Shown here: piece after piece, positions 693 to 62,955 of the stretch
Position numbering within the stretch: position 1 is the stretch's first letter
Layout of the letters: the number at the start of each line of letters is the position of its first letter
Assembly: GCA_034401795.1 (NCBI GenBank)
Contig: CM067370.1
Location: 102,862,028-102,926,027, forward strand
Direction of reading: 5' to 3'
Source: Chaetoderma sp. LZ-2023a
Lineage: Eukaryota > Mollusca > Caudofoveata > Chaetodermatida > Chaetodermatidae
DNA: 64,000 bases
Position numbers and translations under genes: made by a program
Notes under the pieces: generated by a model
Database searches by the model: none
What the model saw: the letters and a program-made list of their open reading frames with translations, nothing else
Told to the model about the DNA's origin: nothing

Positions 693-1082
693 AATGGAGG
701 AAACCAGCTTATTTATTAGTCATATGACATCATAGCAACGATGTGACGTGTAGGCTGACATAATCAATTACGTCATGAATGACATAGCCAAGTGCATAAC
801 AAAACCTTAACTGATGACAGACTAAGCATTGTTGTACGAATTGGATGTCTTTACTGTTTAATAAACCTGCTTTTGCATATTATGAAACTAATTTGACTGG
901 GTGCTGTTGCTGCCATAGGCACCCATTCCAATTAGGTTCAAAATATACAGCAGCTTAACTGTATAGTTTTCTGGAAAATGAGATTCATAGAGGGCAGGGA
1001 TCGATTGATCCCAAGACTGTCAAAGCATGGGTGGAGCTTAGCTCGAGATGGTGTGGCATGGCTAAAACTGTATTCCTCCATT
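693..1082 (+). repeat. family A foldback MITE-like element, near full length
   Basis: The ends are an imperfect inverted repeat: aatggaggaa at the left and ttcctccatt at the right. In between, in family order, are a segment with degenerate TGACGTCA-like motifs (729-780), AATAAA before the hairpin (860), the hairpin arm around 'gaaactaatttgactggg' with a partly deleted second arm, a gatcgattgatc palindrome, and 'gtggagcttagct'. It has no ORF and is non-autonomous. The family is recognised from its many repeats in this window; I do not know a published name for it. Confidence 0.8.
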
Positions 1083-2056
1083 TTAACCTCTAAATAATAG
1101 TCGTGTTAAAGCTCTCATGTTCAATTAAATAGAGACACATTTGCATGAGATATGATATGCTTGCTGATTTCTGTGCAATTTACCCAACAAACATTGCACA
1201 GACTCAATGTTCATTCTAACTATTGGACACCATATTAGTTACGTCTGTTGTCTGTACAGACCAGGATTTCTTAAACAAAAAGTCCTCATCTGCATGTGCA
1301 ACTGTTCATTTGTCAGCCAGCTCTTGAGATGTGAGCGCATAGGATGTGTCATGGCAGTACGATTGACAGCGCATATTTCAGTATTATTCAGAGCACACAT
1401 ATCAATTTCTAGGAGAAAATATGAGAAAGCTGATGTATAATTTGACAAGAATGTGCATTAAAGTTGTTGCTGTCAACAACAGAAACAGAAATCAGTCAAA
1501 TTATTGTCAAAATAATTAGTAGCCAATGTGAGAGCAACATATCTACAGTTTTGATACAAATTTAAATGAAAATTATTACTGCTGCAGCTTTCCATCTGCA
1601 TATTCTAAAATAATCATCATAGCTTTCAGTTGAAACTTGTTGCAGATTAGACGAGCAATTAGGGAAGTAAGTTGTTGCTGATTAAGGCATCAACCACATT
1701 GTCAATCATTCTCCATAGAATCAGCAGATTCAATATCGATACCGGTCAAATTAGTTTCAAAATTTTCAATACCTTTCCTGTATAATTGTCGTGAAGCTGA
1801 GATGCTTGGATTCAAATGGTTGAATGCTGAGGAAGTGTGGCAGCCATCTTTTATTGATATTATGTACAGAAATATTTTCTTAACTTCCAGACTGAAGTGT
1901 GTTTACGCTGAGGATGAGTCATTCACTGTGCGCTGGCCTATCTTCATGATGCTAGGAAGGAAGCCGCTATAGTAATATTCTATTGGTAGATTTGCATGAG
2001 ATGAGATGTCTTTTGATTTCCCACATATAGAAACTTTGTACATTAAAGCTGTACTT
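1083..2056. other. no gene recognised; one family A fragment
   Basis: AT-rich sequence without coding signal. At 1743-1790 a fragment matches the second hairpin arm of family A (gtcaaattagtttcaaaatt) and the tail that follows it. Confidence 0.5.
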
Positions 2057-2296
2057 TTAGCCCTGTATACTCAAACCGGCCAAAAACAGCTCCTGTAGTG
2101 GTCTTGAGAAATTGTTCACTCGCAGACCAAGAGAAGAACATTTTTGAAAATTTACAACCGCAATGACTGGCTTGATAACCGAGTCAGTCATTATAGTGGT
2201 AAATAAAAAAAAAATAGTCTTCTCTTCGTCTACAAATTGACACTTTCTTTCAGAAAATTAAATTTTTCTTGAACAAATTTACGGCTTAAATGGTTA
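2057..2296. repeat. family B foldback element (TTAACCC-type ends)
   Basis: This is an imperfect palindrome. The left part has 'ggccaaaaacagctcctg', 'gtggtcttgagaaat' and 'agaccaagagaag'. The centre is 'atgactggcttgataaccga'. The right half returns with 'agtcttctcttcgtct'. It ends in 'tggttaa'. Compared with better copies (45087-45303, 21169-21528), the first TTAACCC has decayed to tttagccc. It has no coding capacity. Confidence 0.65.
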
Positions 2297-2854
2297 AATA
2301 TTTCATATGATTATAATGGTCAGCTTCTACACAAGCTCATCAGACAAAGTACTTTTGTGAGCAAAATACAGAATGTGACAGTTATTCTTAGAATACACTA
2401 ATGCCTGTGTATAGTGAACAAAAATTGTTGCTCTTTGACCCTTTGGCCCTTACAGACCAGAAACTGCTAAGGAAGGATTTGATCTGTCACTCGAGTATCT
2501 GCGGTTATAATCAGTTACATCACTCGGTAGCTTAGGTAACATGCATAATGACGTATTCATAGTTTCACACATCCGGGCATCTTGAGATCAGCTGCCATTA
2601 AAGTTGGGGCAAACTTACTACATGCTAAAGAGGACTGCCCATAGCAAAGCATTGTTTACATTTTCCATGAAGCTCAAACCATTACATCCTGTATCTGAGA
2701 GTCTATAATAACCCTGCCACGTATAAGAAAACATCAATTCATGAGTGAATTTTGCAAGATAGTAAAGAAAATGTAATTAAGGTTTTACACCTCATAATGT
2801 TAAATTAGCCCCTCCAAAAATGGCGTCGCTCCTTGGGTATTATGGGAAATTTGA
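2297..2854. other. no gene recognised
   Basis: I see no coding region, RNA gene or clear repeat in this stretch. Confidence 0.4.
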
Positions 2855-3235
2855 TTATGTCATCGCGATTCTATGAATTATAACTCTGTCATGAAGCCTG
2901 AAAAGTCTGGCAAGTGTATAAATTGTATGTCTTTGATGGATTTACAATTTAATAAAGATTTCTTTGAATATTTTGAAGCTAATTTGAATGGGAGCAGTTC
3001 CTGCCATAGGCAGCAATGGCCCCGAGTGAAATTAGTTTCAAATATTCAACCACCTACCGGTATATTGCCATGAAAATGAGATTCTGGGAATTTGTGGTTC
3101 AAATATATAAATCAATTCCAACATGTGGGGGAAAAGTGGTTGGAACTTTAAGCTAGAAATGGGTGGAGCATGGCTAGAAATGGGTGGAGCATGGCTAGAA
3201 ATGGGTGGAGCATGGCTAGAAATGGAAAGAAATAT
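2855..3235 (+). repeat. family A element with expanded 20-bp tandem tail
   Basis: Family A order is kept: AATAAA at 2951, the first arm (gaatattttgaagctaattt), a loop around 'gccataggcagc', and the second arm 'aaattagtttcaaatattca'. The tail motif 'tagaaatgggtggagcatgg', usually present once or twice, occurs four times in tandem between about 3155 and 3230. That is a small minisatellite inside the element. Confidence 0.75.
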
Positions 3236-3494
3236 GGCCCAAATCCGATCTTACAAACCAGGAATCCACGCTATTTGGACCAAGTTCTGGTACTATTACC
3301 TGCACAATGCAAACTGCCAGCAACCTGGCAGGTGTGTTTATACAATGATCTTCAGATAAAGTCAAGACTTTCTTCTGTCCAGCAAATTGCACTTGTTTCA
3401 GCCAGTGTCACTCCACTAGTAATAAATCAATCCAATCTCAGTTCCAGCCATGATTCAGATACCATACAGAGCAACACCCATCTGGCAGGTGTCT

Positions 3495-61430: not shown

Positions 61431-61432
61431 TG

Positions 61433-61516
61433 ATATATATATATATATATATATATATATATATATATATATATATATATATATATATATATATATATAT
61501 ATATATATATATATAC
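61433..61516. repeat. (AT)n microsatellite, ~42 units
   Basis: Uninterrupted dinucleotide run separating two oppositely oriented LINE RT fragments. Confidence 0.95.
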
Positions 61517-62690
61517 GATATTGCTGAGAATACATTAATCTTATAAGACTATTTGCTGATGATACCTCGATGCTTGCATCTGGAGAAAACGAGATCAATA
61601 TTGAACCAGCTTTGAACTAAGACCTGGTGGCTCTAAACTGCTGGTCAAAGCAATGGCTGGTCAAATTCAACCCGAACAAATCAGTCAATATGATAGTGGC
61701 AAATCAGCCAACTCATAACATGCCAAACCTTATTCTAGACAATACACGAATAAGCCGAGTAGTCTCACAACTATGTAGGCCTCACATTGTCATCCAGTCT
61801 GAAATGGACAACCCATATAGAGAATATGATTGAAAGAGCAAACATAGTTTTGGGTTCAATGAGAAAAATAAAATACAAAGTATCAAGGAAATCATTATTT
61901 AAAATCTATCTTAGTTACCTTCGTCCTGTATTGGAATATGCATCCGAAGTGTGGGACGGATGCACGTAACAAGCTTCAGAAAACATTGAATACATCCAAA
62001 AAGAGGCGATAAGAATAATATCTGGACTTCCGAAATACACACTTCTAGAAGGATTATACAAAGAACTTGGATTGGTCATGCTAAGTAGCAGAAGAAAAAA
62101 CCAAAAAACTTATTTTAATGTATAAAATGCTAAAAGGAGACTGTCCAGATTATATTTCTGAATTAATCCCAAGACGGTTAGACAAAGTTATAAATTATAA
62201 TCTACGAAATAGAAATAACCTAGTAGAAGAAGACATTCGTCTTGAGAGCTATAGAAATCTTTCTTTCCTAGTACAATCAATCTTTGGAACAAACTAGATG
62301 ATTCCGTTAAAGGTTTTCCATCTGTCTCCATATTCAAATCAAAAATTGATCACAACCACGTTAGCGCCATACCTGCATATTATAGCACTGCGGACAGACT
62401 TCCCAATAGTATACACACTAAATTACGAAATAAATGTAGTTAACTTAACGCTCATCTTAATTATTTTCATCTTAGTCGCAATCCTAATTGCGCCCATTGC
62501 ATAGGCATCATAGAAGATAGCAAACATTATTTACTCGAGTGTGCCAAATATACAGAACACCGACAACAGCTATCTAGAGATCTACTACATTTTGTTATTT
62601 CAGAGGACATATTACTATATGGAAACCCCGACCTAGGCTTTGAAAAAAACCTGTTTCATACTTCAGAAAGTATAGAATTACATTAAGAAT
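61517..62690 (+). pseudogene. CR1/L2/Jockey-type LINE: RT motif C to C-terminus
   Basis: It opens directly after the AT array with NLIRLFADDTSMLASGE (motif C Asp pair), then NCWSKQWLVKFNPNKSVNMI, WTTHIENMIERANIVLGSMR, SLFKIYLSYLRPVLEYASEV (thumb) and IQKEAIRIISGLPKYTLLEG. The end has CIGIIEDSKHYLLECAKYTE, the Cys/His motif. Several frameshifts and stops are present. It is 5'-truncated at the AT array, at about the same RT position as the minus fragment next to it, but the two differ in sequence, so they are separate families. Confidence 0.72.
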
Positions 62691-62744
62691 ACAAAAAGGT
62701 TTGGCTGACTCTAAGCACAGCCCGCATTTCCGCGTATTGGAATC

Positions 62745-62955
62745 GGAATCATGAATTCCCAGGATCCCAATTTCGAGGTAACTATCCATGAGTGTTGTTG
62801 AATATGATGAGGCTAGTGTGGCTGGGTGTCGTTTCTCCTTTTTGCAGCAATGGCTCCCGGTCGGGTTAGTTTCAAAATATTTAACAGCATGTTTACTAAA
62901 ATCTATCAAAGACATACAATCGATAAACTTGACGCACATTTTAGTTTCAATTTTC
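62745..62955 (-). repeat. family A element, partial
   Basis: It has 'aatcggaatcatgaattcc' near the tail end, a diverged first arm ('gttgttgaatatgatgaggc'), the second arm 'gggttagtttcaaaatattt', AACAGCATGTTTACTAAA and 'aaagacatacaatcgataaa'. The CRE-like part is absent. Confidence 0.65.

Follow-up and report, generated by a model that had tools for sequence, protein, structure and literature searches.

An abundant gene-less DNA transposon family in Chaetoderma with an ISL2EU-like target signature and a central palindrome related to those of TTAA-flanked elements

Within the PIF/Harbinger-ISL2EU-Spy (PHIS) transposons, the members of the ISL2EU group are described as duplicating AT at the target A|AT|T, as having terminal inverted repeats (TIRs) that usually start with GG, and as carrying open reading frames (ORFs) for a THAP/HTH/DDE transposase and for YqaJ (PMC4482050). 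The nearest published idea to a palindromic core shared between mobile elements is the highly conserved V domain of short interspersed elements (SINEs), which also occurs in the miniature inverted-repeat transposable element (MITE) MER6 (PMC6887750); among the open-licence PubMed Central articles listed by searches, no title or abstract opening describes a palindrome common to MITEs of different superfamilies. Here we analyze a window of 64,000 nucleotides from the mollusc Chaetoderma sp. LZ-2023a (C12:102862028-102926027, in a genome of 2.44 Gb and 2753 contigs, of which C1-C17 each exceed 70 Mb), together with a hairpin-centred element of about 400 bp, family A, that recurs in it. We assign a probability of about 0.7 to the reading that family A is a MITE moved by ISL2EU, with the target A|AT|T, and that its palindrome was kept in source copies and is shared with MITEs flanked by TTAA.

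Family A resembles the ISL2EU group in its A|AT|T target, in a duplication of AT at most and in the GG start of its TIR, and the animal genome in which it lies also contains pairs of YqaJ and DDE_Tnp_4 genes. Unlike ISL2EU elements, it is gene-less, is only about 400 bp long and has a central perfect palindrome that is also present in TTAA families; no matching autonomous element was found beside four YqaJ/DDE loci. The TTAA-specific MITEs of this genome (families A2, A3, B and C), which may be piggyBac-like, are alike in their TTAA flanks, short TIRs, length below 250 bp and central palindrome. Family A differs from them in its ends and target, yet has its hairpin in common with A2, A3 and C.

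Other described systems share single traits with family A. Made1 is palindromic throughout, whereas the palindrome of family A is a separate part set between unique flanks and short TIRs. Like family A, the Made1/hsa-mir-548 MITEs are short DNA transposons able to fold as a hairpin (PMC1784062), and foldback elements such as Tm1 likewise have long inverted repeats (PMC3169594), but the long inverted repeat of family A lies inside the element, its terminal one measuring 16 bp. The V domain found in SINEs and MER6 is likewise a module common to non-autonomous families of different kinds (PMC6887750); unlike it, the module of family A is a palindrome, is common to two classes of DNA-transposon ends and shows two-sided changes.

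The initial annotation of the window had proposed about 20 copies, on both strands, of an element built around a 93-bp perfect-type hairpin. With a 404-bp consensus derived from 40 genome copies, 20 islands of the window matched family A at E<=1e-4, amounting to 5149 bases on both strands, and 10 Markov-shuffled windows gave no match; some of these islands are hairpin-only matches from related families (e.g. 39969-40059). Near-full copies were found on both strands within tens of bases of the places listed there, apart from 15918, which belongs to an older sister group. The hairpin is exact in the consensus, with 93 bp (45+3+45), the loop ATA and Watson-Crick pairing at 45 of 45 positions, but the copies in the window have decayed, their arms being 89%, 87% and 81% complementary in three of them. 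Folded as DNA, the consensus hairpin reached -54.4 kcal/mol against -9.2 ± 2.4 for shuffles, and all three window hairpins that were folded were far better than their shuffles (z of -14.1, -11.2 and -9.4). The other parts of the order that had been described for the element do recur, but mostly as degenerate motifs: the exact GGGCGGGGCATAGCTA occurs twice in the window (at 6055, and at 59415 on the minus strand) and the exact GATCGATCGATC once (at 22308).

As a DNA transposon of the cut-and-paste kind that has no genes and is very abundant, family A has the properties of a MITE: it is short, lacks coding capacity, and has TIRs, defined ends and unrelated flanks. Related sequence was present in 16 of 20 stretches of 10 kb taken at round coordinates across the genome. 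When the consensus sequences of A, B, A2 and C competed for the same 200-kb random genome sample, family A covered 9455 of 200000 bases (4.7%), which by extrapolation corresponds to about 115 Mb genome-wide, while family B accounted for 5.5% and the four families jointly for 11.4%. Of 2884 candidates, 40 copies were scored; their identity to the consensus was 88-91%, so that no young copy was seen among them.

The ends of family A are sharp and have the form A-AT-GGAGGATTCCAG…CTGGATTCCTCC-AT-T. Genome copies share these ends, their alignments stopping sharply at AATGGAGGATTCCAGT ... ACTGGATTCCTCCATT with unrelated flanks beyond. The terminal repeats, previously regarded as weaker, form a 16-bp TIR whose two ends agree at 15 of 16 consensus positions (end sequence, form GGAGGATTCC), and several copies carry a variant in which CCTTTCC replaces GGATTCC. 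At 56 left ends the bases A, A and T were found in 91%, 91% and 93% of cases, with C/T as the next base outward in 78%, and the first two positions inside AT were G in 70% and 75%; at 52 right ends A, T and T were each found in 92%, with A/G as the next base outward in 75%. No flank duplication of 2-12 bp was accepted in 539 tests on 40 copies (49 offset combinations per duplication length, 100 permutations; best z 2.6).

Copies inserted into members of their own or a related family supplied empty sites. An alignment across the joined junction was available for 5 of 45 full copies, and in two of these five it was weak or could not be read. In L003, GAAAT[GG...]ATTGAG compared with GGAAATTGAG in relatives is a clean join, as is TCAAT[GG...]ATTAAG in L035 compared with TCAACTACG in most relatives; in L016, CAAAT[G...]ATTATT joins with CAAATTATT of one relative after a one-base shift of the start. 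The empty sites of these three nested copies are AATT or AACT, with no extra bases. The junction of L019 joins without gaps to a single weak relative, and the end of the window copy at 5685 is too decayed for its junction to be read. From the end-base frequencies and the empty sites, the target of family A is (C/T)AATT(A/G), with an AT duplication of at most 2 bp. A TWA target duplication, as for PIF/Harbinger, disagreed with the flanks, the empty sites and the end bases alike, and a TTAA duplication, by piggyBac or otherwise, disagreed with the end bases. Taken as a whole, the earlier interpretation is partly supported: as it proposed, the element is dispersed and gene-less, presumably depends on another agent for its movement, and has defined ends, which do recur in genome copies, and an internal hairpin unusual for a MITE; the AATT target, the ISL2EU signature, the lack of young copies among those scored and the homologous hairpins beside other ends go beyond it.

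Because the target A|AT|T and the GG start of the TIR are the published ISL2EU signature (PMC4482050), the reading that suits family A best is that of an ISL2EU-type MITE. Judged by these sequence features, the view that it works like one is well supported, and an ISL2EU transposase presumably moved it. The genome contains 67 YqaJ matches, as well as 150 DDE_Tnp_4 matches that were scored out of 2519 candidates. Counted by hand among the matches listed, at least 14 convergent YqaJ/DDE_Tnp_4 pairs have their two genes within 4 kb, on C1 (two), C2, C4 (three), C5, C8, C9, C11, C12, C13, C15 and C16. One pair was checked by Pfam, with YqaJ at E 2e-20 (L062) and, in the adjacent frame, DDE_Tnp_4 at E 1.4e-40 together with HTH_Tnp_4. 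A THAP domain is visible by eye at a YqaJ/DDE locus; the piece searched with Pfam, which lacked part of THAP, gave no THAP match. At C12:87.057-87.062 Mb (L062-L063), a family A-related copy is nested between convergent ISL2EU-like YqaJ and DDE_Tnp_4 genes, and a second copy, L061, shows 96% identity across 3.4 kb.

A scan of 319 kb yielded 75 hairpins, nearly all of which fall, by eye, into a few classes. The class A2 hairpin is the centre of an element that begins TTAA|CTGTCTGTCTGCTGAA, that of class A3 the centre of one beginning TTAA|C(A/C)CTTTCACCGATAAA, and that of class C the centre of one beginning TTAA|CCCTTACCACTCTGATGT. Family B is an element of about 240 bp, TTAA|CCCTTTAACACTCAAAT...GAGTGTTAAAGGG|TTAA, with a central 65-bp palindrome; at least 12 of its 21 full-length copies listed have, by eye, an exact TTAA on both sides. 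TTAA on both sides and inverted TIRs, the marks of a TTAA-specific MITE, are present in A2, A3, B and C, in the case of A2, A3 and C through a consensus and few copies. In consensus sequences of copies picked by perfect-palindrome seeds and 85% coverage, pairing is 45/45 in A, 53/53 in A2, 44/45 in A3, 43/46 in C and 65/65 in B. The arms themselves are homologous between families, with 0 of 3000 shuffles for A and A2, 1 of 3000 for A and C, and 13 of 3000 for A2 and C.

Hairpins of the A/A2 type form 159 islands in 348 kb, 89 with the flanks of family A and 70 without them. Among the 64 clusterable islands without these flanks, 9 belong to the older sister group, 8 to A3, 8 to A2 and 12 to four smaller groups. 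Starting instead from the ends, a hairpin was found 60-92 bp inside the A2 TIR in 8 of 13 places, which represent 6 loci because two were reached from either end, and inside the A3 TIR in 10 of 46, compared with 246 of 5354 for any TTAA; in controls, a hairpin of the A/A2 type lay inside B-type TIRs in 7 of 81 places and inside C-type TIRs in 2 of 15. Looking for TTAA pairs at any distance up to 260 bp from the hairpins was too noisy; with the distance limited to 45-80 bp, such pairs bordered 5 of 65 islands, compared with 38 of the 5000 places taken at random. Since homologous hairpins lie in A, A2, A3 and C, a hairpin-centred module appears to be common to elements with different TIRs and targets. 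No comparable hairpin was present in one representative each of 11 other abundant repeat clusters (depth >=4 in 264 kb; scores 5-12). Two further observations concern repeats of this genome: a hairpin-less repeat (L041:85-852 and others) forms 21 islands and 13.5 kb at depth >=4 in the 264 kb, and at L054:4051-4739 four hairpin copies of the A/A2 type stand in tandem with similar flanks, probably through local duplication.

The differences between families lie mostly on both arms. In a comparison of perfect-palindrome-seeded copies, which leans towards two-sided changes, the changed pairs that are Watson-Crick in both families numbered 8 of 8 between A and A2, 2 of 3 between A and A3, 5 of 6 between A2 and A3, 9 of 12 between A and C, 8 of 10 between A2 and C, and 8 of 12 between A3 and C. 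Within family A, the two arms of inserted copies decay independently: pairs with the same change on both arms are at chance, both in 71 flanked copies (9 vs 8.3 ± 2.8) and in 31 copies not chosen by similarity (6 vs 6.5 ± 2.3). In copies not chosen by similarity, the arms are also less diverged than the flanks, with 9.3% vs 15.4% in family A (arms lower in 20 of 23 copies, p 8e-6) and 10.3% vs 16.5% in family B (26 of 27 copies). The simplest reading of these comparisons is that the palindrome is maintained in source copies; after insertion, it is not maintained in family A.

According to the reading that we prefer, a unit of about 400 bp with 16-bp inverted ends would have been inserted into A|AT|T by an ISL2EU-type transposase. 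Its central 93-bp palindrome would chiefly be a trait of the source copies, remaining perfect or almost so as the families went apart. By homology it is common to MITEs with TTAA ends and other TIRs, and in TTAA family B, which is equally abundant, an unrelated palindrome is likewise central.

Several observations weigh against this reading. Insertion into A|AT|T with duplication of AT and plain insertion between AA and TT yield identical sequence, so the class of transposase can only be inferred. No family A-like TIR pair lay within about 3 kb on either side of four YqaJ/DDE loci (C12:87.06 Mb, C5:7.84 Mb, C2:69.77 Mb and C1:107.16 Mb, of which those on C2 and C1 are near copies of each other), and the own ends of these four loci were not established. 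The TTAA families with a homologous hairpin are represented by few copies (10 rows for A2, 6 for A3 and 7 for C), the choice of copies for consensus pairing is biased to paired arms, the A2 and A3 TIRs were derived from partly the same copies as those counted for the association of TIR and hairpin, and 27 of the 64 clustered islands without family A flanks stayed singletons. Homology of the family B palindrome with that of A was unsupported (457 to 1013 of 3000 shuffles, p 0.15-0.34). In 37 copies of family B, same-change pairs were in excess (33 vs 17.4 ± 3.9; 0 of 1000 permutations), by which the independence of arms that holds for A is rejected for B, and cells with both bases changed were in excess as well (53 vs 37); compensated source variants, mixed copy ages or arm-to-arm repair could each produce the same-change excess. 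When hairpin-only matches are included in family A, 29 of 47 both-changed cells are compensated, which we ascribe to the mixing of families. Lastly, the lower divergence of the arms could come partly from alignment or from flank subfamilies.

That one hairpin is shared across different ends hints that it helps its passengers to move or multiply, a function that we infer from sequence comparison. The palindrome may act as an extruded cruciform or as a single-strand hairpin within an element of 240-400 bp, bringing the ends together or aiding excision; this structural mechanism, which we prefer, suits one type of structure occurring with two types of ends. It remains a tentative proposal that the palindrome helped source copies to multiply, most likely in this manner.

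The main rival, which we regard as a serious possibility though short of even odds, is passive carriage of the palindrome. In this view, a hairpin MITE with TTAA ends at some time entered an ISL2EU-type MITE, or vice versa, the resulting composite was amplified, and the palindromes persist solely because the source copies are mutually young. Nested insertions are indeed common in this genome, and a hairpin copy at L044:2903, with TTAA on its right and an uncertain left end, also matches, beyond the hairpin, the right flank of the older sister group (score 17; 0 of 2000 simple shuffles) and that of family A itself (score 19, without shuffles). Passive inheritance predicts one-sided differences, however, whereas those between the family consensus sequences are mostly on both arms; moreover, both A and B have arms that diverge less than their flanks, and the palindrome that family B has at the same place is unrelated.

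Arm-to-arm repair, which would keep the palindrome with no need of a benefit, comes next and seems unlikely. It would produce both the two-sided differences between families and the same-change excess of family B, but inserted copies of family A are without such an excess, and that of B may stem from compensated source variants or from copies of mixed age. Less likely again is an action of the hairpin as RNA, in which transcripts of the element would be a Dicer substrate and yield small RNAs or act as microRNA precursors, as for some MITEs: the 45-bp stem of the family A consensus is perfect and MITE-derived human microRNAs are known (PMC1784062), but a mollusc survey reports no evidence of a dedicated endogenous small interfering RNA pathway (PMC12479628) and a comparison of the window with Rfam gave nothing at gathering scores, both of which argue against action at the RNA level, and inserted copies of family A show no pairing constraint. 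The least probable alternative is a Spy-type transposon inserting between AAA and TTT without duplication, since, although AA^TT insertion without a longer duplication fits Spy, an A precedes AA at 7% of the 56 left ends and a T follows TT at 17% of the 52 right ends, so AAATTT is not the target, and the sequence inside AT starts with GG, as in ISL2EU.

The copies of these families in the window are collected in Table 1.

Table 1. Copies of family A, its sister group and the TTAA families within the window, with percent identity to the family consensus where available.
Feature	Positions	Strand	Details
Full family A copy	693..1082	+	TIRs AATGGAGGAAACC ... TATTCCTCCATT; 84.4% to consensus
Hairpin of the 693..1082 copy	869..954	+	apical part partly deleted
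Full-length TTAA family B copy	2057..2297	+	83.5%; unrelated 65-bp central palindrome
Older sister copy (group c1)	2915..3183	+	hairpin 2964-3050
Full-length TTAA family B copy	3495..3727	+	86.3%
Near-full family A copy	5695..6078	+	TIR variant CCTTTCC / GGAAAG; 84.9%
Hairpin of the 5695..6078 copy	5867..5959	+	45-bp arms 89% complementary, 3-base loop
Older sister copy (group c1)	16052..16280	+	hairpin 16073-16162; 5' part extends towards 15918
Full family A copy	19277..19652	+	76.5%
Hairpin of TTAA family C copy	19805..19898	+	
Family A copy	20581..20952	+	5' end intact, 3' TIR lost; 79.4%
Two adjoining truncated family A copies	22139..22576	+	87-97% by piece
Full family A copy	31117..31518	-	hairpin 31251-31344; 79.8%
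Family A copy	37089..37414	+	3' end intact, first 29 consensus bases unmatched; 74.2%
Homologous hairpin in TTAA family A2 copy	39969..40064	+	minus-strand right end TTAACTGTCTGTCTGCTGAA, ending at 40120; left end decayed
Truncated family A copy	46721..46897	-	
Near-full family A copy	57692..58076	-	hairpin 57811-57904; 83.2%
3' two thirds of family A copy	58111..58372	-	first 142 consensus bases missing; 78.6%
Near-full family A copy	59412..59761	-	76.8%
Older sister copy (group c1)	62727..62920	-	hairpin 62796-62887

Judged by eye from its inverted repeat, a further family B copy lies at 45126-45243 of the window. Additional long inverted repeats at 45844-46157, 20058-20283, 33963-34213 and 8782-9096 appear unlike families A, B and C. 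On the minus strand, a GC-richer block with long ORFs at 9640-14545, partly repeated elsewhere in the sample, resembles by eye a DIRS-type retroelement, and broken ORFs at 49216-53224 appear, also by eye, similar to a long interspersed element. Elsewhere in the genome, 44 matches to the molluscan haemocyanin beta-sandwich domain (PF14830) were found, whereas none of 14 control genomes gave one; the 14 solved chains matching one such piece are without exception named haemocyanin, including keyhole limpet KLH1, which makes the organism very probably a mollusc. These domains are clustered at C8:80.83-80.92 Mb, C8:96.37-97.02 Mb and C17:62.63-62.66 Mb, with equal scores for several C8/C17 pairs.

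In its widest form, the reading of the hairpin as a functional part, which we hold to be possible but doubtful, is that the palindrome would be a cis-acting module that is under selection and can be carried from one element to another: it would have been exchanged between MITEs of two superfamilies whose transposases and targets differ, would have arisen independently in a third family and been kept perfect in the sources by compensating changes, and would explain the success of families totalling about one tenth of the genome. An open question is what raises some gene-less MITEs to a very high copy number and leaves their relatives rare; the most abundant short families encountered here have a central palindrome in common across unrelated ends, several of them by homology. 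The palindrome may thus offer a concrete candidate for a cis-element of this kind, a DNA-transposon analogue of the conserved domains of SINEs.

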